From Sinorhizobium fredii (GTDB lineage: Bacteria; Pseudomonadota; Alphaproteobacteria; Rhizobiales; Rhizobiaceae): DNA of 64,000 bases. The notes under the pieces were generated by a model. The model was not told the DNA's origin. It ran no database searches and worked only from the letters and a program-made list of their open reading frames with translations. Positions 2,171 to 49,507 of this stretch are shown here, one piece after another. A program made the position numbers and the translations under genes. Location of the stretch: the NCBI RefSeq assembly GCF_002944405.1, contig NZ_CP024310.1, positions 1,426,001-1,490,000 of the forward strand, written 5' to 3'. Every line of letters starts with the position of its first letter. Position 1 is the stretch's first letter.

Positions 2171-2653
2171 CTAGGAGATGGCGATAATCTCGAGCTCCTG
2201 ATCGCCCACACTCACGACATCTCCGACGGCCCTGCCCATCAGCATCCTTGCGACCGGCGATACGTAGGAAATCGATCCGGCCTTGGGGTCCGCTTCGTCC
2301 TCTCCCACGATGCGATATTTCTGCACCCGTCCATCGTCGCGGCTGAAAGTGACCGTGCTCCCGAAGGCGACGGTATCGGTTGAGGTCGGATCCGGGACAA
2401 GCTGAGCCGTGCGAAGTCTCTCGGCAAAGTAGCGCAGGTCCCGCAAGGGGCTTGCCGCGTGCCGGCGCCTTTCATTCACGTCTTCGATCGTGCTCGTGGC
2501 ATCATGGGCCTCGCGAGCGAGCTGGAGCGACACCTCCAGCGCCTTCAGACCCGCTTCCGTGACAAGGTTCGGGTGAGGTGAAACTGGACGGTCGGGCAGC
2601 AATGTTTCCGACGCAGTTTCGGCACTTTCTTCCTTGGTGAAGGCAACACTCAA
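2171..2653 (-). CDS. GreA/GreB C-terminal-domain protein
   Basis: 160 residues. The N-terminal half is charged and predicted helical, like the GreA/GreB coiled coil (about residues 30-85). The C-terminal half contains the FKBP-like Gre domain (GSTVTF..DG..YRIVGEDEADPKAGSISYVSPVARMLMG and VGD.V). Gre factors enter the RNA polymerase secondary channel and stimulate cleavage of backtracked RNA. The protein matches the GreA length, but the coiled-coil sequence is divergent, so it may be a specialised paralogue. The start appears to be TTG at 2653, preceded by GGAG. It stands alone, convergent with the AhpD-like gene. Confidence 0.82.
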   Translation of the reverse strand: MSVAFTKEESAETASETLLPDRPVSPHPNLVTEAGLKALEVSLQLAREAHDATSTIEDVNERRRHAASPLRDLRYFAERLRTAQLVPDPTSTDTVAFGSTVTFSRDDGRVQKYRIVGEDEADPKAGSISYVSPVARMLMGRAVGDVVSVGDQELEIIAIS

Positions 2654-2893
2654 TCTCAGTCTCCGTTTAGACGCGGGGCGCTGATGGCCCGTCCGCCCCG
2701 ACGCCGCGCGAGCCGATACTGCGCCGACCTGAAGTCAAACTCGGAACCTGCGTTCGGGGCGCCCGCGATCGTCGCTCCCTCGCCTGACAGAGCGACAGCC
2801 GAAGCGTGGCGCCTTCAATAATGGTATATAGAACATAGGGCCGGGGCTGAAGCGTCAAGTAATCATCATCACTCCCAATCGAGGAGGAGGTCG

Positions 2894-3622
2894 ATGCGTG
2901 GCAAATCGCACCCGCTGCTTGAAGAGGCTCTGGAAGCGCATGGTGGGCACGCCCGTTGGCGCGCGTTCAGGGGGATCGCCTCGACCATACGGACCGGTGG
3001 AAAGCTATGGGAGCTGAAAGGCGCTCCTTTGATTCCCGTGCCGCGGCGGGCAACAAGCGAGTTCCGTCGCCAGTGGACTCGCGTTACGCCCTTCGGCGAA
3101 CCCGATTGGACGATGACCTGGACTCCCGAGCATGTGGAGATCACCGCCGGAGACGGCTCGGTTATCGCCCATCGGGAAAACGGACGTGAGGCGTTCGATC
3201 GCAGCTTCAAGGGACAGTGGGACCCGCTGAACCTCGCCTACTTCAACGGCTACGCCATGTGGACGTATCACGCGGCGCCGTTCGTTTTCGGCGAGCCCGG
3301 CTACGAAGCGCGCGACGTTGCCCCGATCGACAATGAAGGCGTGAAACTTCGCGGCGTCGCCGTGCGGTTCCCCGAGGGCGTTCACAGCCATACGCGGGAA
3401 CAGCGCTTCTACTTCGATCCCCAAGGGCTGCTCCGCCGTCACGACTATACGGTCGATGTCTGGGCGGACACGCCGGCGGCGCATTTCATATCTGATTACG
3501 TTGACGTTGACGGGCTGAAATACCCGACCCGCCGCAGCGTGTTCACAATCAAGCCGGATGGCGCTCTCGACCGCGATTTCACCGCCGTCACGATCGAGCT
3601 GTCGGACTACGCGCTGTTCTGA
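2894..3622 (+). CDS. Conserved protein of unknown function
   Basis: 242 residues, preceded by a strong GAGGAGGAGG ribosome-binding site. No signal peptide or membrane span is visible. The sequence alternates short beta-type segments (VEITAGDGSVIAH, EQRFYFDPQGLLRRHDYTVDV, YPTRRSVFTI) and looks like one open beta-sheet or barrel domain of the kind seen in LolA-like lipid-binding folds, but I do not recognise a named family. It begins with an 'eALeAHGGharWra' helix often found at the start of such proteins. Its neighbours do not suggest a pathway. Confidence 0.75.
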   Translation: MRGKSHPLLEEALEAHGGHARWRAFRGIASTIRTGGKLWELKGAPLIPVPRRATSEFRRQWTRVTPFGEPDWTMTWTPEHVEITAGDGSVIAHRENGREAFDRSFKGQWDPLNLAYFNGYAMWTYHAAPFVFGEPGYEARDVAPIDNEGVKLRGVAVRFPEGVHSHTREQRFYFDPQGLLRRHDYTVDVWADTPAAHFISDYVDVDGLKYPTRRSVFTIKPDGALDRDFTAVTIELSDYALF

Positions 3623-3947
3623 GCTGCCGCGGTTACGGCTATGCGCGTCCGTGCGGACGCGACACTTGGAGGAAGATCGAGAGCGCGCGATGCGGGCGCC
3701 GTTCGCGATGCCTCCATCGATCACGCGATCCAGGATCACGAGCCTGACTTGGAAACTGTCGACCCGGTTCGCCCGAGACTCGTGAACCGGAGACGGTCGG
3801 CGTAACGGGCTAAGGATGCGCCGAACACTGCGAAGAGCGAGCTTCATGCGGTGGTGCGCGCTTCGGGCGGCCCGGGAGCACGAGCATTGGGACGGCTTGA
3901 TGCGCAAAAGCTGTACCGCGGGTTCGCTCCCTTGCCGCTAAAACCCA
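3623..3947. other. Intergenic region with one strong hairpin
   Basis: No convincing gene. CGCGTCCG (3644-3651) and CGGACGCG (3654-3661) form an 8-base perfect stem just after the stop at 3622. It lacks a T tract, so it could be a weak terminator or an mRNA-stabilising stem for the unknown gene. The rest looks like GC-rich, non-coding sequence up to the convergent Rrf2 gene. Confidence 0.4.
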
Positions 3948-4478
3948 TCAGGATGCCCGCGCACGGCGCCCACGCCTCGGAGTACGTGCGGCCAGCCATT
4001 CCTTTACGTGGCCGGCGTGTTCCTGGGGTGCCTTCGCCTCTACCCGGCCCTTGATGCTCGCCAGCGTATGCGCCGCCAGCGCCTCTCTTGTCCGCTTCTC
4101 GGCCTCGATCATGACCGCGTGGATGGCGCAGACGCCATCCACCGCCCAAGCGGGGGTGCGGTCGCCGAAAAGCGCGCATTGAGCGCGTATCTCCCTGCAT
4201 TCGAAGAGTGCCTTGCGTCCATCGACAGCTTCGACGACATCAAGCGCGGTGATTTCCGTCGCGGGGCGCGCCAGCGCAAAACCGCCGCCAATCCCCTCGC
4301 GTGCGACGACGATGCCGGCCTTTTGAAGCTTGGTGAAAAGCTTCGCCACGAAATCAGCAGGAACCTTCTGCAGCTCGGCAAGATCGCGCGCGCTTGCGGG
4401 CTGCCCCAACTCCTCCGCATCGGCGAGGAAAAGAAGACAGTGAAGAGCGTATTCAACGCCTGCGCTGACATGAGCCAT
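3948..4478 (-). CDS. Rrf2-family transcriptional regulator
   Basis: 176 residues from the ATG at 4478 (MAHVSAGVEYALHCLLFLAD), chosen because Rrf2 proteins begin immediately before this helix. The winged HTH covers residues 1-75, with the conserved GGGFALARP wing. Three cysteines follow in the effector region (ECREIRAQC then, 15 residues on, C in GVCAIHAVM), the place where IscR and NsrR bind an Fe-S cluster, although the C-X6-C-X15-C spacing is not the IscR pattern. A redox, NO or Fe-S signal is possible. The C-terminal tail is basic (RTPRRGRRARAS). It is transcribed away from nothing obvious; its targets may include nearby stress genes. Confidence 0.85.
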   Translation of the reverse strand: MAHVSAGVEYALHCLLFLADAEELGQPASARDLAELQKVPADFVAKLFTKLQKAGIVVAREGIGGGFALARPATEITALDVVEAVDGRKALFECREIRAQCALFGDRTPAWAVDGVCAIHAVMIEAEKRTREALAAHTLASIKGRVEAKAPQEHAGHVKEWLAARTPRRGRRARAS

Positions 4479-4675: not shown

Positions 4676-5080
4676 TCAATACATAACCGTATTGAGCATG
4701 ACGCTGATAGGCGCCCCCTTATTGAACTGTGCGCTGCCGCGCGCCAGCAGCCAGCCGTCCGCACGTTCCAGGCGCGCAACGATCCGCAGCGTTGATGAAG
4801 CCGTCGAGCCTGCGGGCGGGGACAAGGAAAAGGTGATCGTCTTCGTCCCGCCGTCGCTTCTGATGCGCGTCTGCGCGGCGCGGCGTCGCGCAGTGTCCTG
4901 AATGGCAGGGTCCTCGAGATAAATCTCAAGATGACCTTCCGGGATAGCAGCGCCGCTCTCGAAGGTGACTGTGCCGCGAATATCCGTCGGTTGCGCGGCG
5001 ACGGGCACGGCGACCGCGGCGAAAGCCGCAGCTCCGACGGTCATCAACACTGTGCGGCGGCCGGTCGGGCGCTTCATCAC
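4676..5080 (-). CDS. YbaY/YscW-like secreted beta protein
   Basis: 134 residues with a clear Sec signal peptide (basic MMKRPTGRR, hydrophobic stretch, cleavage near VAAQ-P at about residue 30). The mature part starts with IRGTVTF.SGAAIPEGHLEIYLED and continues with a beta-rich pattern characteristic of the YbaY family (related to the YscW pilotin fold). No lipobox cysteine is present, so it is probably periplasmic rather than a lipoprotein. Family members are mostly uncharacterised envelope proteins linked to glycan or stress responses. It lies upstream of the Rrf2 gene on the same strand, with about 200 bases between them. Confidence 0.72.
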   Translation of the reverse strand: MMKRPTGRRTVLMTVGAAAFAAVAVPVAAQPTDIRGTVTFESGAAIPEGHLEIYLEDPAIQDTARRRAAQTRIRSDGGTKTITFSLSPPAGSTASSTLRIVARLERADGWLLARGSAQFNKGAPISVMLNTVMY

Positions 5081-42399: not shown

Positions 42400-43692
42400 T
42401 CACGAACCCTTGCCGCCGCACTTGCCCGTGGCGACGTTGAAGTTGCCGCAGGACATCGGCGCCCGCCAATCGGAGATCAGATCCTTGGAATCCGGCAGGT
42501 AATCCGACCACTCGTCGCCGACCACCAGGCCGGGCGTTTCCCAGACTGTCTCGAATTGGCCGTCCGACTGGATCTCGCCGATCAGCACCGGCTTGGTGAT
42601 GTGGTGGTTCGGCATCATCGTCGAATAGCCGCCCGAGAGGTTCGGCACCGAGACGCCAATCATCGCGTCGAGCACCGCGTCGGTGTCGGTGGTGCCGGCT
42701 TTTTCGACGGCCTTCAGCCACATGTTGAAGCCGATATAATGGGCCTCCATGGGGTCGTTGGTGACCCGCTTGTCATTCTTGGTATAGGCCTTCCAGGTCT
42801 TGATGAATTCGGCATTGGCCGGATTGTCGACCGACTGGAAATAGTTCCAGGCAGCGAGATGGCCGACAAGCGGGCCTGTGTCGAGGCCGGCAAGCTCTTC
42901 CTCGCCGACGGAGAAGGCGACGACCGGGATGTCCTCGGCCTTGACGCCCTGGTTGGCGAGTTCCTTGTAGAAGGGCACGTTGGCGTCGCCGTTGATCGTC
43001 GAGACGACGGCGGTCTTCTTGCCGGCCGCGCCGAACTTCTTGATGTCGGAGACGATCGTCTGCCAGTCGGAGTGACCGAAAGGCGTGTAGTTGATCATGA
43101 TGTCCTCGGGCTTGACGCCCTTGGAAATGAGGTAGGCCTCGAGGATCTTGTTCGTCGTGCGCGGATAGACGTAGTCCGTGCCGGCAAGCACCCAGCGCTC
43201 GACCTCCTCGTTCTCCATCAGATAGTCGACTGCGGGGATCGCCTGCTGGTTCGGGGCCGCACCGGTGTAGAAGACGTTGCGCTGGCTTTCCTCGCCCTCG
43301 TACTGAACCGGGTAGAAGAGGATCGAGTTCAGCTCTTCAAAGACCGGCAGCACGGATTTGCGCGACACGGAGGTCCAGCAGCCGAAGACGGCCGAGACCT
43401 TGTCGACCGAGATCAGTTCACGCGCCTTTTCGGCAAAGAGCGGCCAGTCGGAGGCCGGGTCGACGACGACCGCTTCGAGCTTCTTGCCGAGCAGGCCGCC
43501 CTTCTTGTTCTGCTCGTCGATCAGCATCAGCATGGCATCCTTCAGCGTCGTCTCGGAGATCGCCATGGTGCCGGAAAGCGAATGAAGAATGCCGACCTTG
43601 ATCGTGTCGTCGGCGGCAAAGGCGCCGTTGAACGCGGTCGTCGAAAGAACGGCAGCGAGAAATGCGCCGGTGACGCGTGCCCTGTAAGTCAT
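42400..43692 (-). CDS. urtA: Urea-binding periplasmic protein UrtA
   Basis: 430 residues from ATG 43692, with AGAGGGG upstream. Signal peptide MTYRARVTGAFLAAVLSTTA ending near GAFAADD. The mature protein starts TIKVGILHSLSGTMAISETT, with VDPASDWPLFAEKARELI, FGCWTSVSRKSVLPVFEE and YPVQYEGEE, the UrtA/FmdD form of the Leu/Ile/Val-binding fold. The upstream region is short (146 bases to the next gene); I could not find a convincing NtrC/sigma-54 signal there. Confidence 0.94.
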   Translation of the reverse strand: MTYRARVTGAFLAAVLSTTAFNGAFAADDTIKVGILHSLSGTMAISETTLKDAMLMLIDEQNKKGGLLGKKLEAVVVDPASDWPLFAEKARELISVDKVSAVFGCWTSVSRKSVLPVFEELNSILFYPVQYEGEESQRNVFYTGAAPNQQAIPAVDYLMENEEVERWVLAGTDYVYPRTTNKILEAYLISKGVKPEDIMINYTPFGHSDWQTIVSDIKKFGAAGKKTAVVSTINGDANVPFYKELANQGVKAEDIPVVAFSVGEEELAGLDTGPLVGHLAAWNYFQSVDNPANAEFIKTWKAYTKNDKRVTNDPMEAHYIGFNMWLKAVEKAGTTDTDAVLDAMIGVSVPNLSGGYSTMMPNHHITKPVLIGEIQSDGQFETVWETPGLVVGDEWSDYLPDSKDLISDWRAPMSCGNFNVATGKCGGKGS

Positions 43693-43839
43693 CTGGTTGA
43701 ACCCCTCTAGCTCTGGTCGCCGCAACGGAGTGTTGGTTCTCCTTGGCCGTTGCTTGAGGGATATTCCGCCAGGCCCACTGCACTGCACATACGACATTCT
43801 ACGTAGGCGAATGGGGGAAGAAGGAAGTTCGATCGGATC

Positions 43840-44349
43840 TCACGCCTTCGCCGAATCCGGATCGAGCCACCGGTCGATCGACAGCTTGCCCGGCCCGGCC
43901 TTGAGGATGGCCAATGCCATCGCCGCCCAGGTCAGATGAATGGGCCATCCGTCCGGTACGGTCAGTTGAATGACGATCGTCATCGCCAGCAGCGCCAGCG
44001 CGGCAAGACGCGTCGCCAGTCCCAGGACAAGAAGGACGGGAAACAGGACTTCCGCCGATGCGGCAGCGAAAGCCGTCACCGCCGGTGCCGGAAAGGCATA
44101 GGGGCCGCCCGGCAGGTGCAATCGGAACTCCGACGTAAAGAGCAGCAGCGCGACATCGTTCAATTGCAGGAAGCCGTCCCACTTGCCGATACCCGAGCGC
44201 CAGAAGGGGACGGCGAGTCCTAGGCGCAGCAGAAGCTGGGCAAGCCATGCCGGCGCCAAGGCGGCGATCAGGCCATCGACCCGGCCGAACCAGCCTGCCC
44301 TCCCGGTGGCCGCGTGCCTCTTGAAGAAATTCCGCACCGACGTGACCAT
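43840..44349 (-). CDS. bufD: DoxX-family protein of the bufferin operon (BufD-like)
   Basis: 169 residues from ATG 44349. Four to five hydrophobic helices of the DoxX family: LLLRLGLAVPFWRSGIGKWD, AEVLFPVLLVLGLATRLAAL, AALALLAMTIVIQLTV. The ending KLSIDRWLDPD is the form found beside DUF2063/DUF692 genes. It starts one base after the bufC stop. In bufferin operons the DoxX member is proposed to supply redox function at the membrane, though its exact role is unsettled. Confidence 0.8.
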   Translation of the reverse strand: MVTSVRNFFKRHAATGRAGWFGRVDGLIAALAPAWLAQLLLRLGLAVPFWRSGIGKWDGFLQLNDVALLLFTSEFRLHLPGGPYAFPAPAVTAFAAASAEVLFPVLLVLGLATRLAALALLAMTIVIQLTVPDGWPIHLTWAAMALAILKAGPGKLSIDRWLDPDSAKA

Positions 44350-44350
44350 C

Positions 44351-45142
44351 TCATCCTCCCTGGCGAATGCCCGCAAAGGCACCGCCCTCCAGCATCGTCG
44401 CGATCGCCGCTGCCAAATCGAAGTCCGGGCAGCACATGGTCGCCGCCGCGGCGGCGCTCACAAGCGGCTCGCCGGCCATCAGCCTGCCCAGAAAAACATC
44501 GTCGCCCGGCGCGAGGCGGCGAACCTCGACCTCGAACAGCGGCCTTGTCACCAGCGCGCTTTCGGCGGCCGTCGTTTCGATGCGCCCGACAGCACCGCTT
44601 GCCCGATTGACCGAGAAGATCGTCACCGCCGGATAGGCGGAGCGAAGAATGTGGCTCGCCGGATGCTGCTCGAAGACGAGTTCGCCGAGCCGTTCCGGTG
44701 GGACCGCGGCGAGCTCATCCGGGCGGAGCACTGCCGCGTCGGCCGCATGATAGGCATGGAGCCAGGCGCGCTCGATGCGTGCGACGTCGGCGAGCCATGG
44801 CATGGATCTCGCATGTTCGTAGCGCTCGATGAAATCGGGGAAATCCCGGCCGTACTCGAAGAGGAGCGGCGACGTCGGCGGGGTTTCACGGACGTGGAAG
44901 CGGGCCATCGCTCGAAAGAATGTTTCGCCGGTGATGCGCTTCGTCGCCGGAAAGACCGCGGCAAGCGATTCGATAAGGCTGACGGTCACATTGTTGCGAT
45001 AGACAGCGAAGCGCTTGCCGACGGCCTTGCCGTTCGGGCCGGCGACAAGCGCGGGCGTCGCGCGGCCGGGATCGAGCAGTCCGGGCACGAAACCCTCCGG
45101 GTAGTCGAGCCCGCCGGCCGAACTTTCCCTAAGCGCGCGCAT
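44351..45142 (-). CDS. bufC: DUF2063/HvfC-family partner of the MNIO enzyme (BufC-like)
   Basis: 263 residues. The N-terminal domain (GNGKAV-type [19 protein letters not shown] then [20 protein letters not shown]) is the DUF2063 putative nucleic-acid/peptide-binding fold. The C-terminal half ([40 protein letters not shown]) resembles the HvfC tail. These proteins bind MNIO enzymes and guide the precursor peptide. It overlaps bufB by 14 bases, which signals translational coupling. Confidence 0.85.
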
Positions 45143-46052
45143 GCATCTTTTCCCGTGGCAGTGCGACCGCGTGGCGATCGAGAATCACCTGGGCCGCCAT
45201 CGCTTCGGCTTTGAGAACCGGCCAGTCGGGTATGGCGCTGTCCCATTCGACGAGCGTCGGGATCGGACCGCGCCGGCCAATGACGATTTCGAAAAGCTTC
45301 CAAACGGCATGGGACACCGGTCCGTCATGGCTGTCGATCAGCAGCCGGTCGCCTTCGTCGTCGCGCTGCTCCGCATGGCCGGCCAGATGGATCTCGCCGA
45401 CATGCTCGAGCGGGTAGTCCGAGAGATATTCGAGAGCGGAAAAGGCGTGGTTGGTGGCCGAGACGAAGACGTTGTTGACGTCGAGCAGCAGGCCGCAACC
45501 GGTGCGTTTGACGAGTTCCCGGATGAATGTGGTCTCGCTCATCGTCGATTCCTTGAACAGCAGGTACGTCGACGGGTTCTCCAGGAGCAGCGGTCGTCGG
45601 ATCGCCTCCTGCACCTCGTCGATATGTTCGGCGACGCGCTGCAAGGTGGCTTCGGTATAGGGCAGCGGCAGAAGGTCGTTGTAATAGGTCGTGCTGTGTG
45701 TCGACCAGGCCAGGTGCTCGGAGACGAGCGCCGGCTCGTAGCGTTCGACGAGGCTTGCGAAGCGGCCGAGGTGGTCCTTGTCGAGCGGCTGCGGCCCGCC
45801 GATCGACATGCAGACGCCATGGAGCGAGACCGGGTAATCCTCGCGTATCCGCGACAGCGCCGCGTGCGGCGGCCCGCCCAGCCCCATGTAGTTTTCCGCG
45901 TGGACCTCGAAGAAGCCGCCCTGCCGATCCAGAAGAATGGACGGCAGGTGCTGGTGCTTGAAGCTGGTCCCGGCCAGCCCGGCGATCGTATGCACCGGAA
46001 AGCAGAGAGCCTGCGGCGCACCGCGATCTGCTGGAATTGTCGATACAGGCAT
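45129..46052 (-). CDS. bufB: MNIO (DUF692) RiPP-modifying enzyme (BufB-like)
   Basis: 307 residues from ATG 46052, preceded by GGAGG. TIM-barrel DUF692 family with the multinuclear iron ligands visible as [46 protein letters not shown] and [13 protein letters not shown] enzymes oxidise cysteines in ribosomal peptides, in bufferins giving thiooxazole-type heterocycles that bind copper. Precursor (bufA) lies 32 bases upstream. An open frame reaching back to 46457 is only bufA in another frame. Confidence 0.92.
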
Positions 46053-46084
46053 AGTCGCCTCCACCTTCCGGCCGCTTGGTCGGC

Positions 46085-46408
46085 TTACGAGGGAATGTCG
46101 CGGGTGAGCGGCTCGGGCGAACCCTTCCTGCCGCCCGGGAGTTCCATCGTCGTGCAGGTGCCGCCGTCGACGAATTTCCAGGCATTGCCCTGATAGTCGA
46201 CCGTCGACGTGGCCTGGCAGGTCGTACCCGGACCGGCGGCGCAATCGTTCTGCCCCTTGAGCGCGACGCCGAAGCATTTCTCCTTGCCGGCATCCATCGC
46301 CGCCTTGACCTGTTCCTGTGAAAGCGGCGCGGCCATCGCAAGCGACGACACCGCGGCTGCCACGGCACCTGCCAATACGGCCACATTGATCGTGGATTTG
46401 GAAGTCAT
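46085..46408 (-). CDS. bufA: Bufferin-type RiPP precursor (DUF2282, BufA1-like)
   Basis: 107 residues from ATG 46408 (GGAGAG upstream). Residues 1-27 are a Sec-type signal peptide ending AMA-AP; unusually for a RiPP, the leader doubles as an export signal. The core has four cysteines (45, 56, 64, 85) in the DUF2282 pattern: [38 protein letters not shown]. BufB is expected to modify the cysteines, and the product is exported to the periplasm where it chelates copper or other metals. Promoter of sigma-F type 54 bases upstream (see 46469-46493). Confidence 0.9.
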
Positions 46409-46468
46409 GACATCTCTCCATTTGAGGGTCCCGTGCGGCCTCCGTTTCCAGGGCCACACAGAGCCTCG

Positions 46469-46493
46469 TTCGCCGAAAACGGGGATATGTTAC
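46469..46493 (-). promoter_or_regulatory. Predicted SigF-type promoter of bufABCD
   Basis: On the minus strand GTAACA (46493-46488), 15 bases, then CGAA (46472-46469). The same elements with identical spacing precede the sigma gene on the other strand. This agrees with the GTAACC-N16-CGAA-type signature I recall for Caulobacter SigF. Confidence 0.75.
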
Positions 46494-46614
46494 ATTTGCC
46501 GCCTACACGCTTTCGTGAGTGCGATGGACGCCGGACTCACGAGGATTTTGGATTGACTGGATCCGCAATCAGAACAGTGATCGGCACAACGCCGACAGAA
46601 TCGCGAGCGGACCT

Positions 46615-46639
46615 GTAACAATCGGCGAAAACCGGCGAA
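46615..46639 (+). promoter_or_regulatory. Predicted SigF-type autoregulatory promoter
   Basis: GTAACA (46615-46620), 15-base spacer, CGAA (46636-46639). Transcription would start a few bases on, leaving a very short leader that includes the AGGAAG ribosome-binding site for the GTG at 46657. Confidence 0.72.
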
Positions 46640-46656
46640 TGGGGAGGAAGCGCAGG

Positions 46657-47193
46657 GTGGACGGCGCAAGCGACCGAGATCTCGCACGGCTCTTCCGCAC
46701 TGCGCTTGAAGGCGACGAGCGGGCCTATGGCGACTTCCTGCACGAAGCGGCGCGTCTTGTCCGGGCCTGGGCACGGCGGCGAACGGGGTTCGCCGGCCTC
46801 GATCCGGAAGACATCGTTCAGGAGACGTTGCTGGCGATCCATGTGAAGCGCCACACCTGGAGAAGCGATGGTCCGGTGGCGCCATGGCTCTATGCGATCG
46901 CCAAGCACAAGCTTGTCGATGCGATGCGCAGGCAGGGCCGCCATCCGCGGATCGACATCAGCGAGGTGGAAGGCCGGCTCGCAGCCGAGGAGGCGGAAAC
47001 AGCCAGGGATTGGGAGATCGGCCGCGCACTGGAGACGTTGACGCCGGGCCAGCGCTCGGTGGTGACCGCGATATCGGTCGAGGGGCGCACGATCGCCGAG
47101 GCGGCCAGAATCCTCGAGATGAATGAAACCGCAGTTCGCGTGGCATTACACCGTGGCCTTGCCGCGATAGCCAGGCGATTTGGAAGAGATTGA
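46657..47193 (+). CDS. sigF: ECF sigma factor of the ECF16/SigF type
   Basis: 178 residues from GTG 46657, chosen over ATG 46639 because GGGGAGGAAG lies 6 bases before it and because the -10 element overlaps the ATG. Region 2 includes LDPEDIVQETLLAIHVKRHT with the core-binding and -10-melting helices (about residues 50-69); region 4 is LTPGQRSVVTAISVEGRTIA EAARILEMNETAVRVALHRG. The DIVQETLLAIHxKRHTW signature is characteristic of the NrsF-associated sigma factors. Followed one base later by the anti-sigma gene. Confidence 0.9.
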   Translation: MDGASDRDLARLFRTALEGDERAYGDFLHEAARLVRAWARRRTGFAGLDPEDIVQETLLAIHVKRHTWRSDGPVAPWLYAIAKHKLVDAMRRQGRHPRIDISEVEGRLAAEEAETARDWEIGRALETLTPGQRSVVTAISVEGRTIAEAARILEMNETAVRVALHRGLAAIARRFGRD

Positions 47194-47194
47194 C

Positions 47195-47833
47195 ATGGAA
47201 ACAGATGACCTCATCAGGGCCTTGGCGGCAGACACGCGACGAGGCCGCATATCGATGGCCGGTGCCTGGTCGGCGGCCGGCGCCGCCGCCGTCGCGCTGG
47301 CGGCCATCGTCTTCTTCGGCGTGCTCGGCGCGCGGTCGGACATCGCCGCCGCTGCTGAAACCTTCCGCTTCCTCTTCAAATTCGTGGTGACCGTGGCGCT
47401 CGCCGCCAGCGCCTTCGGTCTCCTTAAAATGCTGTCGCGGCCGGATGCAGAGCCGCACCGGACCCTGCTCGGCCTCGCCGTCGCACCGATGCTGCTGGCC
47501 GCCGGGATTGTAGCGGAACTTGCCGTCTCGCCGCTGGGCACTTGGTCCGCCAGGCTCGTCGGCACGAACAGTCTCGTCTGTCTCACCTTCATCCCGCTGA
47601 TCGGGATAGGGCCGCTTGCGCTGCTGCTATTGGCGCTGCGCCATGGCGCTCCGTCTCACCCCATGCTCGCGGGCGCAATGGCCGGGCTTGCGGCCGGCGG
47701 CATCGCCGCGACCTTCTATGCCGCCCATTGCACGGATGATTCACCGCTCTTCGTGGCGACATGGTATACCATCGCGATTGCCATGCTCACGCTCGCCGGC
47801 GCGCTCGCGGCGCCCCGTATCGCCCGCTGGTAA
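47195..47833 (+). CDS. nrsF: NrsF-type (DUF1109) membrane anti-sigma factor
   Basis: 212 residues from ATG 47195. A cytoplasmic N-terminus of about 25 residues (METDDLIRALAADTRRGRIS) is followed by six membrane helices, the DUF1109 architecture. The only two cysteines, C129 (SLVCLTF) and C179 (AAHCTDD), lie where the Caulobacter NrsF protein has its two signal-sensing cysteines (131 and 181 there). NrsF holds the sigma factor at the membrane until heavy metal or oxidant reacts with these cysteines. It starts one base after the sigma stop. Confidence 0.9.
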   Translation: METDDLIRALAADTRRGRISMAGAWSAAGAAAVALAAIVFFGVLGARSDIAAAAETFRFLFKFVVTVALAASAFGLLKMLSRPDAEPHRTLLGLAVAPMLLAAGIVAELAVSPLGTWSARLVGTNSLVCLTFIPLIGIGPLALLLLALRHGAPSHPMLAGAMAGLAAGGIAATFYAAHCTDDSPLFVATWYTIAIAMLTLAGALAAPRIARW

Positions 47834-47937
47834 TGACCTCCCAAGCGAACATCGGGTTTAGCGGATACGCCTCTGCCCTCATCCCTCTGCTCGCCACAAG
47901 AATGAGGATCAAGGAGAGGAGAGCCACGCTGATCATA

Positions 47938-48627
47938 TCAGGCCGCGCGCTTCCCGGCTCGTGCAATGCTTGGCTGCAGCAGCCATGTCATCAGCAAGAG
48001 CGCGGAAATCGCACCGATCAACTCGGCCACGATAAAGCCGGGAAGATCGGCGGGGCGAATGCCGGAGAACGTGTCGGTCAGCGATCGGGCGACTGCCACG
48101 GCTGGGTTGGCAAACGAGGTGGAAGCGGTGAACCAATAGGCGGCGGTGATATAAAGGCCGACCAGCCAGGGTACGGATTTCTGCTCGAAGCGGATGCCGG
48201 CGAGGATGGTCGCGACGAGGCCGAAAGTCGCCACCCATTCAGCGAGCCATTGCGCTTGCCCGGTGCGCATCTTCGTCGACCATTCGAGGATCGGATGATC
48301 GAACATCAGATGCGCAACGATTGTGCCGATGATGCCGCCGGTGACCTGGGCAAGGACGTAACCGGCGAGATCGCGTCGCGGCAGGGAGCGCGACAGTACA
48401 AAGATCAGCGATACGGCGGGGTTGAAATGCGCCCCGGAGATCGGTCCGAGGATGGTGATCAGCACCACCAGGATTGCGCCGGTTGCGAGCGTGTTTGCGA
48501 GCAAGGCGAGCGCCGTATCCGCTGTCAGCGACGCGGCCATGATGCCCGAGCCGACGACGGTTCCGACAAGCAGTGCCGTGCCTAGTCCTTCCGCGACGAG
48601 GCGGCGGGAGAGATCGTACGACGACAT
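47938..48627 (-). CDS. aqpS: Aquaglyceroporin AqpS, arsenite channel
   Basis: 229 residues with six membrane spans and two NPA boxes (GAHFNPAVSL and SFANPAVAVAR). In S. meliloti aqpS replaces an arsenite pump in the ars operon and lets arsenite made by ArsC leave the cell down its gradient. Its start shares a base with the arsC stop (TGATG). No arsH follows; the next gene is nrsF, convergent. Confidence 0.92.
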   Translation of the reverse strand: MSSYDLSRRLVAEGLGTALLVGTVVGSGIMAASLTADTALALLANTLATGAILVVLITILGPISGAHFNPAVSLIFVLSRSLPRRDLAGYVLAQVTGGIIGTIVAHLMFDHPILEWSTKMRTGQAQWLAEWVATFGLVATILAGIRFEQKSVPWLVGLYITAAYWFTASTSFANPAVAVARSLTDTFSGIRPADLPGFIVAELIGAISALLLMTWLLQPSIARAGKRAA

Positions 48628-49154
48628 CAGCGCGCCTCGGGCCGGGACGTGGAGCCTTCGAGCCGGCCGATTTCGTGGAGCTTCGTCTCAAGCGCGAGCT
48701 TGTCGATCGAGGCGAACGGCAGGGCTGCGAAGACCGATATACGGTTCTTGAGGTATTTCGCTGCAAGCGCAAAGGCGCGGCCCTTCTCCACATCCGAACC
48801 CTCGACGGCGGCGGGATCCTGGATGCCCCAATGCGCGGTTGCCGGATGGCCGATCCAGACCGGACAAGCCTCGCCGGCAGCATCGTCGCAGACGGTGAAG
48901 ATGAAGTCCATCTGCGGAGCGCTTGGCCCGCCAAAGGCGTCCCAGCTCTTCGACGAGAACCCGGTGGTGCGATAGCCGAGCGCCTCGAGCGTCTTCAGCG
49001 CCCAGGGGTTGACCTCACCCTTCGGCTGGCTTCCGGCCGAGAAGGCGCGGAAGCGCCCTTTCCCCTCCGCCTCGAGTATGGCTTCCGCCATGATCGAGCG
49101 CGCGGAATTGCCGGTGCAAAGAAAGAGGACGTTGTAGACCCGATCGTCGTTCAT
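48627..49154 (-). CDS. arsC: Arsenate reductase ArsC (low-molecular-weight phosphatase fold)
   Basis: 175 residues from ATG 49154, better spaced from AGGGG than the earlier ATG at 49160 and overlapping the arsR stop. LFLCTGNSARSIMAEAI has the C-X5-R catalytic loop, and PQMDFIFTVCDDAAGEACPV contains the further cysteines needed for the disulfide relay. It reduces arsenate to arsenite, thioredoxin-dependent in this family. Confidence 0.92.
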   Translation of the reverse strand: MNDDRVYNVLFLCTGNSARSIMAEAILEAEGKGRFRAFSAGSQPKGEVNPWALKTLEALGYRTTGFSSKSWDAFGGPSAPQMDFIFTVCDDAAGEACPVWIGHPATAHWGIQDPAAVEGSDVEKGRAFALAAKYLKNRISVFAALPFASIDKLALETKLHEIGRLEGSTSRPEAR

Positions 49155-49507
49155 TGGCATTTCCCCTCTACGGTTGGCGCACAGCAGGCCGCGATCGCGG
49201 CGGCCGGTGCGCAGATTTCAGGATGGCCGCCACAGCAGTCTTCCATCAGGAAGCGAACGAGGCTGCCGAGCGCATCATAATTGGCCGAGTAGATGATCGA
49301 CCGCGACGCGCGCTGCTGGGTGATCAACCCCGCCCGTTCCAGTTCCTTGAGGTGGAACGAAACATTGGAGGGCGAGACTTCAACCTTCTCGGCAATTGCG
49401 CCCGCCGGCATGCCGTTGGGACCTGCAATGACCAACATGCGGACGATCTGCAGGCGCGTTTCCTGGGAAAGCGCGCCGAACGAGGCGAGCGCTTGACGTT
49501 CATTCAT
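49151..49507 (-). CDS. arsR: Arsenic-responsive repressor ArsR
   Basis: 118 residues. Winged HTH (SQETRLQIVRMLVIAGPNGM, VSPSNVSFHLKELERAGLIT). Metal-binding thiols lie at the C-terminus: MEDCCGGHPEIC and AACCAPTVEGKC, a type 2-like arrangement where arsenite binds in the C-terminal region and not in the DNA-binding helix. First gene of arsR-arsC-aqpS; the operator directly abuts its start. Confidence 0.92.
   Translation of the reverse strand: MNERQALASFGALSQETRLQIVRMLVIAGPNGMPAGAIAEKVEVSPSNVSFHLKELERAGLITQQRASRSIIYSANYDALGSLVRFLMEDCCGGHPEICAPAAAIAACCAPTVEGKCQ

Follow-up and report, generated by a model that had tools for sequence, protein, structure and literature searches.

Which signal would a rhizobial bufferin operon answer to, and does the sigma factor encoded beside it serve that operon alone? 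These questions are raised by six genes in a 64,000-nucleotide stretch of Sinorhizobium fredii DNA (NCBI RefSeq assembly GCF_002944405.1, contig NZ_CP024310.1, positions 1,426,001 to 1,490,000 of the forward strand), hereafter the window. Here bufA, bufB, bufC and doxX (bufD) run divergently from the genes for an extracytoplasmic function (ECF) sigma factor and an NrsF-type anti-sigma factor. Sequence comparison identifies the locus as an operon for a Buf1-type bufferin, with an ECF16-type sigma/NrsF pair encoded alongside. We are fairly confident that the operon makes a bufferin and is controlled by a dedicated ECF16 sigma/NrsF switch, with copper as the most likely signal. The locus is already known, as the orthologue of the rpoE7 divergon of S. 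meliloti published in 2018. The same gene set has been published in this sister species and in other bacteria, and our analysis is therefore a confirmation rather than a discovery.

Gene content and family assignment

Six open frames were found at 43840-47833, in the order and with the overlaps given in a preliminary description of the window. On the minus strand bufA (46085-46408) encodes a Buf1 precursor of 107 amino acids (aa), which matched Pfam DUF2282 at 78.6 bits (cut-off 22.4). The next gene, bufB (45129-46052, minus strand, 307 aa), encodes the MNIO bufferin maturase and scored 342.5 bits against Pfam MbnB_TglH_ChrH, the old DUF692 (cut-off 25), and 370.3 bits against the NCBIfam model MNIO_BufB (cut-off 310). 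The partner protein of the MNIO enzyme, BufC (44351-45142, minus strand, 263 aa), matched Pfam DUF2063 at 83.1 bits (cut-off 27.2), and the DoxX-family membrane protein (43840-44349, minus strand, 169 aa from an ATG start) matched Pfam DoxX at 60.3 bits (cut-off 23.6). On the plus strand the sigma factor scored 46.6 bits against Pfam Sigma70_r2 (cut-off 24), 50.4 bits against Sigma70_r4_2 (cut-off 25.7) and 228.6 bits against the NCBIfam sigma-factor equivalog PRK12512.1 (cut-off 198). The product of the nrsF-type gene (47195-47833, plus strand, 212 aa) matched Pfam NrsF at 181.8 bits (cut-off 26.8). We label the sigma factor ECF16 for its 79% identity to RpoE7, a member of ECF16 according to PMC6180224. 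All of these families, including DUF2282 for bufA and DUF692 for bufB, had been named in the preliminary description, and the profile matches bear them out.

Other NCBIfam models stayed below their cut-offs, namely HvfC (37.1 of 142 bits), HvfX (61.1 of 80) and AntiSigF_NrsF (93.9 of 300), so that the anti-sigma factor is a family member by Pfam and not that equivalog. BufA did not reach the model for BufA2, a Buf2-type metallophore (21.2 of 60 bits). We dropped that name for the precursor, a DUF2282/Buf1 protein and thus of the other bufferin subfamily. Buf1 clusters are described as having a core of DUF2282, MNIO, DUF2063 and DoxX genes, and the available text of the same source reports sigma and NrsF genes in Buf1 clusters and not in Buf2 clusters (PMC12452194). 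The locus has a four-Cys DUF2282 precursor, an MNIO maturase with the metal-site residues, and DUF2063 and DoxX genes alongside. We found no feature that distinguishes it from Buf1 clusters in general.

The four buf genes are tightly coupled, as had been claimed, with a 32-nucleotide (nt) gap between bufA and bufB, a 14-nt overlap between bufB and bufC and a 1-nt gap between bufC and doxX. The shared strand and these tight junctions predict a single bufABC-doxX operon. A gap of 1 nt also separates the sigma gene from nrsF. The sigma factor probably starts at the GTG at 46657, giving a protein of 178 aa (46657-47193, plus strand), rather than at the first ATG at 46639, from which it would have 184 aa. 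We prefer the GTG because the ATG overlaps the -10 element of the sigma promoter and because relatives fit the GTG better. A GTG or TTG lies near this position in all 26 aligned relatives, in a comparison made by eye with the frames not checked singly. In the window the in-frame GTG sits behind GGGGAGGAA. The profile searches used a sigma frame beginning at 46639 and a doxX frame beginning at 44352, a codon ahead of the doxX ATG.

Twin divergent promoters

Both operons are preceded by a GTAAC-N16-CGAA motif of the ECF16 promoter type. The predicted bufABCD promoter lies at 46469-46493 on the minus strand, its motif starting 85 nt before the bufA ATG, and that of the sigma-nrsF operon at 46615-46639 on the plus strand, starting 42 nt before the GTG. 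The two point in opposite directions within the 248-bp divergent intergenic region. Eight exact copies of the motif occur in the 6.56-Mb genome, two of them at the locus, against 79 of a reversed control pattern, and the binomial chance that at least two of eight copies fall in this 248-bp stretch is about 4e-8. The window has no other exact copy. When one mismatch was allowed the window held four matches against 6.5 expected, which is not unusual, and the promoter case therefore rests on the exact matches, their position and their conservation. A sigma-70 promoter scan of 43200-48600 returned none, with 0.9 expected in shuffles. Because the promoters are paired before the buf and sigma operons, they very likely make a dedicated sigma circuit.

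The six other exact copies in the genome lie inside open reading frames (ORFs) of at least 100 aa in four cases (L001, L002, L004, L006) and between ORFs in two (L003, L005). The pattern TGTAAC-N17-CGAA had three genome matches, all between ORFs of at least 100 aa, and a scan with the N17 form of the motif gave six matches against 17 for its reversed control. In both scans the control patterns were commoner than the motif, and from these genome-wide copies we claim no further regulon members. One of the three N17 copies (L052, G000 C1:3648576-3648602) precedes the start of a 243-aa ORF by about 50 nt and may be an extra sigma target or a chance match.

Conservation in the genus

We compared the locus across 33 genomes of the genus, its own included. 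A close NrsF (at least 65% identity) was found in 27 of them and a close BufB (at least 78%) in 26; in the genome with NrsF and no BufB, a 70%-complete assembly, the contig breaks off within bufA. The other six have neither. Both promoters are kept in all 26 close orthologous loci, a count that excludes the locus of the window and the remote NrsF homologues L036-L038. The NrsF frames of these 26 are free of internal stops, as are the BufB frames of 25, the last being cut by its contig end. As NrsF identity among the close orthologues is 65-78%, the intact frames and promoters suggest selection. On the evidence of gene content, gene order and promoters conserved across the genus, the locus is far beyond chance.

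Two loci show variants. In one of the close orthologues of the genus (L045, G024 C24:340000-352000, about 2454-4476) an insert of about 2 kb with a 455-aa ORF separates the bufA and sigma promoters, each of which is intact and still beside its own operon. The other locus carries a remote ECF/NrsF pair of 27-35% identity with two divergent GTAAC...CGAA motifs and no buf match (L046, G007 C3:1660000-1670000, 4719-4823).

Conserved residues and a model of NrsF

The cysteines of BufA are strongly conserved, Cys45, Cys56 and Cys64 being present in every one of 59 sequences and Cys85 in 58 of them, the other having a gap. By eye, the amino-terminus of BufA resembles a Sec signal sequence. Alignment with 3bww showed that BufB keeps the DVNN (N194) and DxH (D240, H242) motifs. 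Residues N175, D242 and H244 of HvfB, reported to be essential (PMC13419390), were mapped by eye onto N194, D240 and H242.

NrsF carries two conserved cysteines. Among the genus sequences, gathered by whole-protein search, C129 is present in all 30 and C179 in 29, the exception being the remote homologue L038. A wider set has both cysteines in 83 of 83 sequences and H178 in 76, although the cysteine figure is partly circular because the two peptide patterns that gathered this set contain C179 and C129; the genus set is the fair test. An AlphaFold2 model built from 30 sequences (mean predicted local distance difference test score, pLDDT, 87.9) has six helices of 16-28 residues, predicted to be membrane helices. 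C129 opens the fourth helix and C179 lies in the loop that joins helices five and six, which would place the two cysteines on one membrane face of a six-span protein. By analogy with the published Caulobacter topology this face would be periplasmic (PMC3511200). In Caulobacter NrsF, substitution of the two conserved cysteines (C131, C181) deregulates the regulon (PMC3511200). A Foldseek search of the model against the PDB gave 58 matches with a best E of 1.2, from which we claim no relative.

A wider sample of NrsF loci

To what extent is the circuit self-contained, as the preliminary description had it? We sampled the best 80 named NrsF loci of 553 confirmed, a sample that overlaps the genus set and is not independent of it. 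The gene bufA was present at 55 of the 80 and all four buf genes at 53. Among the 55 bufA loci both strict promoters were found at 39, the buf promoter alone at 15 and neither at one. The motif occurred 110 times in 46.7 kb around the expected place, whereas 860 kb of flanking DNA contained 11 copies. A relaxed pattern was matched in five of the 15 loci without a strict sigma promoter and absent from ten, and none of these was counted as a promoter.

Bufless NrsF loci numbered 24, of which five had too little upstream DNA to judge; at L155 a doxX-like fragment is all that was found. The sigma promoter alone was present at 16 bufless loci. Eight genomes were chosen from the 24 bufless loci and examined, including that of L103, where no sigma match was found. 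Four of these genomes hold six DUF2282 genes, with the strict motif before one gene per genome (four of the six). The sigma factor can thus probably work for a bufferin operon to which it is not linked, and it can exist without one.

Some loci of this wider set depart from the common layout. In Mesorhizobium and related genomes an NrsF match stands without an ECF16-like sigma match in the fetched stretch (L103, L104, L111, L112, L149), with only 36 bases upstream of the match in L149. In Ancylobacter dichloromethanicus (L164) the buf genes are not divergent: they precede sigma-nrsF and point the same way, without strict promoters, and the matched bufA range contains a stop codon.

Comparison with known systems

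The closest described system is that of S. meliloti 1021, where RpoE7 (ECF16), EcfR7 and SMb20530-SMb20527 on pSymB were described with both promoters (PMC6180224). The rpoE7-ecfR7 locus (SMb20531-SMb20532) has the same six genes, divergent order and two GTAAC...CGAA promoters as ours. Overexpression of RpoE7 raises all four buf genes, its strongest targets, as well as ecfR7 (PMC6180224). We identified the pSymB genes by direct comparison, the pSymB record having no gene table, and found identities of 86% for BufA, 79% for BufB, 68% for BufC, 73% for DoxX, 79% for the sigma factor and 64% for NrsF. The two loci differ in the spacer of the bufA promoter, which is 17 nt in S. meliloti and 16 nt here, and in their flanks, as tblastn found none of urtA, aqpS, arsC and arsR in a 12.9-kb pSymB stretch. 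In the 2018 work SMb20530-SMb20527 were termed conserved hypothetical, not bufferin, in the text available (PMC6180224). The reference list of PMC13097082 includes the S. meliloti rpoE7 paper.

Caulobacter SigF-NrsF and CC3254-CC3257 (bufferin 1), studied with promoter fusions and cysteine mutants, share the layout and promoter type of our locus (PMC3511200). Unlike here, where a second buf operon has no strict promoter, the Caulobacter SigF regulon also includes a second buf operon and CC2748 (PMC3511200). In Cupriavidus metallidurans gigPABT/rpoQ-rsqA is likewise a divergon, in which the genes for a small periplasmic protein, gigA, a DUF2063 protein and a DoxX-like protein are partnered by an ECF sigma/membrane anti-sigma pair; gig is induced by copper and gold (PMC10304878). 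Its effect on copper resistance is small, and sigma control of gig is not demonstrated in the available text (PMC10304878). The RpoE1/RpoE4 sulfite system, considered as a match for this locus, was rejected, as it belongs to ECF26 and has GGAAT/CGTC promoters and other targets (PMC3511301, PMC6527743, PMC6180224).

Genomic setting and a second buf operon

The locus is flanked by urtA on one side and an aqpS-arsC-arsR cluster on the other, aqpS being our own name for a MIP-family channel gene. This arsenic resistance cluster of aqpS-like, arsC-like and ArsR-family genes (47938-49507, minus strand) adjoins nrsF and converges on it, and in the neighbourhood of the locus we saw nothing linking the arsenic genes to the sigma/nrsF switch. 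An Rfam scan of the window returned nothing at gathering score. The host contig is 1.70 Mb long, and the closest plasmid record found was pSS05631b of Sinorhizobium sp. CCBAU 05631, with 99.4% identity over the 7.0 kb compared.

A second buf operon lies 54 kb from the locus on the same contig (C4:1524463-1527060). The region (G000 C4:1521218-1527060, L044:3219-9061) has genes for a four-Cys DUF2282 precursor, an MNIO enzyme 48% identical to BufB, a DUF2063 protein and DoxX. Downstream are NADH-dehydrogenase-like and cyclase-like genes, named by eye. A motif scan found no strict SigF-type promoter at the second operon.

Function of the locus

How might such a switch work? In the mechanism that we propose, BufA would be made with a Sec-type signal sequence, and BufB, an iron enzyme, would act with BufC in the cytoplasm to oxidise some of its cysteines to thiooxazoles. 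The modified BufA would then be exported and hold excess copper in the periplasm. NrsF in the inner membrane would keep the sigma factor inactive until a soft metal, of which copper is the likeliest, acts at its Cys129/His178-Cys179 side. The freed sigma factor would transcribe bufABCD and its own operon from the twin promoters. For this strain we infer the modification and export of BufA, and copper as both signal and target. The Caulobacter bufferin has thiooxazoles and binds copper (PMC12452194), and sigma control of both promoters was demonstrated in S. meliloti (PMC6180224) and in Caulobacter (PMC3511200). In Caulobacter copper induces the SigF regulon and a sigF mutant is copper-sensitive (PMC8224329), and the buf operon is raised by chromium and cadmium (PMC3511200) and by copper (PMC8224329). 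By analogy with Caulobacter metal defence by the locus is likely, and copper is the most likely inducing signal.

Several observations weigh against this account. The S. meliloti promoters gave no reporter response to 1 mM H2O2 or to 50-100 uM CdCl2 or K2CrO4, and an S. meliloti strain without any ECF sigma factor had no major stress defects (PMC6180224). Copper is not among the inducers named for these promoters in the available text of PMC6180224, and we found no copper test of the locus in rhizobia in the open-licence literature. Mutation of sigF did not make Caulobacter more sensitive to chromate or cadmium (PMC8224329), and deletion of gig alone left copper resistance unchanged in Cupriavidus (PMC10304878). 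In the wider sample, 15 of the 55 bufA loci had no strict sigma promoter, so that autoregulation may not be the rule beyond the genus. No buf genes were found at 19 of the 80 NrsF loci despite a search of at least 5.4 kb upstream of sigma/nrsF, and no DUF2282 gene was found in the remaining four of the eight bufless genomes, whose assembly completeness is not stated; the sigma pair is therefore not tied only to bufferins. Of the self-contained metal-defence circuit in the preliminary description, the dedicated switch with its paired promoters is very likely, while the bufless loci call for caution over the word self-contained and the S. meliloti results leave metal defence not established. The metal or oxidant response expected there meets a partial negative in the S. 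meliloti orthologue, set against copper induction of the Caulobacter relative.

The unresponsive S. meliloti promoters could also mean that the switch answers a sulfur, thiol or envelope-redox signal, against which the bufferin and DoxX would protect, with copper binding secondary. The authors of PMC3511200 took the presence of DoxX and of the sulfite-oxidase-like CC2748 in the SigF regulon as a hint of sulfur metabolism, the Caulobacter sigF mutant is impaired in stationary-phase oxidative-stress resistance (PMC8224329), and by eye the bufless NrsF locus L113 adjoins a molybdopterin oxidoreductase-like gene. However, H2O2, tert-butyl hydroperoxide (tBOOH), paraquat and diamide raised Caulobacter SigF targets at most twofold, and chromium and cadmium more (PMC3511200); copper raised them as well (PMC8224329). 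For its sulfite response, moreover, S. meliloti relies on RpoE1/RpoE4, which belong to another ECF group (PMC3511301, PMC6527743, PMC6180224). We regard a sulfur or redox signal as unlikely. It is also conceivable that Sinorhizobium seldom switches the locus on, so that it is intact yet in effect silent, and kept as accessory cargo by gene flow. Its absence from S. meliloti Rm41 and S. medicae (PMC6180224) and from the six genomes without both close genes would fit this, as would the all-ECF deletion without a major laboratory phenotype. The stop-free NrsF and BufB frames and the retention of both promoters at the NrsF divergence seen in the genus argue otherwise, and we give a silent locus only a slim chance. 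Finally, the DUF692 and DUF2063 genes might have an unrelated function, the bufferin reading being a chance family match, as the scores below cut-off for HvfC, HvfX and BufA2 might suggest. BufB and DUF2282 score above cut-off and the full core gene set is present in order, and the family matches together with the conserved BufA cysteine columns make a chance match very unlikely, to the point of being negligible.

One further reading deserves mention. It is possible, though we hold it to be doubtful, that the input of Sinorhizobium NrsF has shifted, so that it would ignore cadmium, chromate and peroxide and answer to Cu(I) only, or to a sulfur or redox cue from the plant or nodule, with the second buf operon, which has no strict sigma promoter, separately controlled. 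If so, the genome would run two bufferins on two different signals.

Why, then, did the Sinorhizobium switch ignore cadmium and chromate, unlike that of Caulobacter? This is the sharpened form of the question that the locus raised, and copper is possibly the missing inducer. In Sinorhizobium/Ensifer the bufferin and sigma genes form a divergon that is conserved as a unit, and its promoter signature lends itself to scanning. The rpoE7 data of 2018, obtained when the target genes were 'conserved hypothetical', are now tied to a known metallophore pathway.

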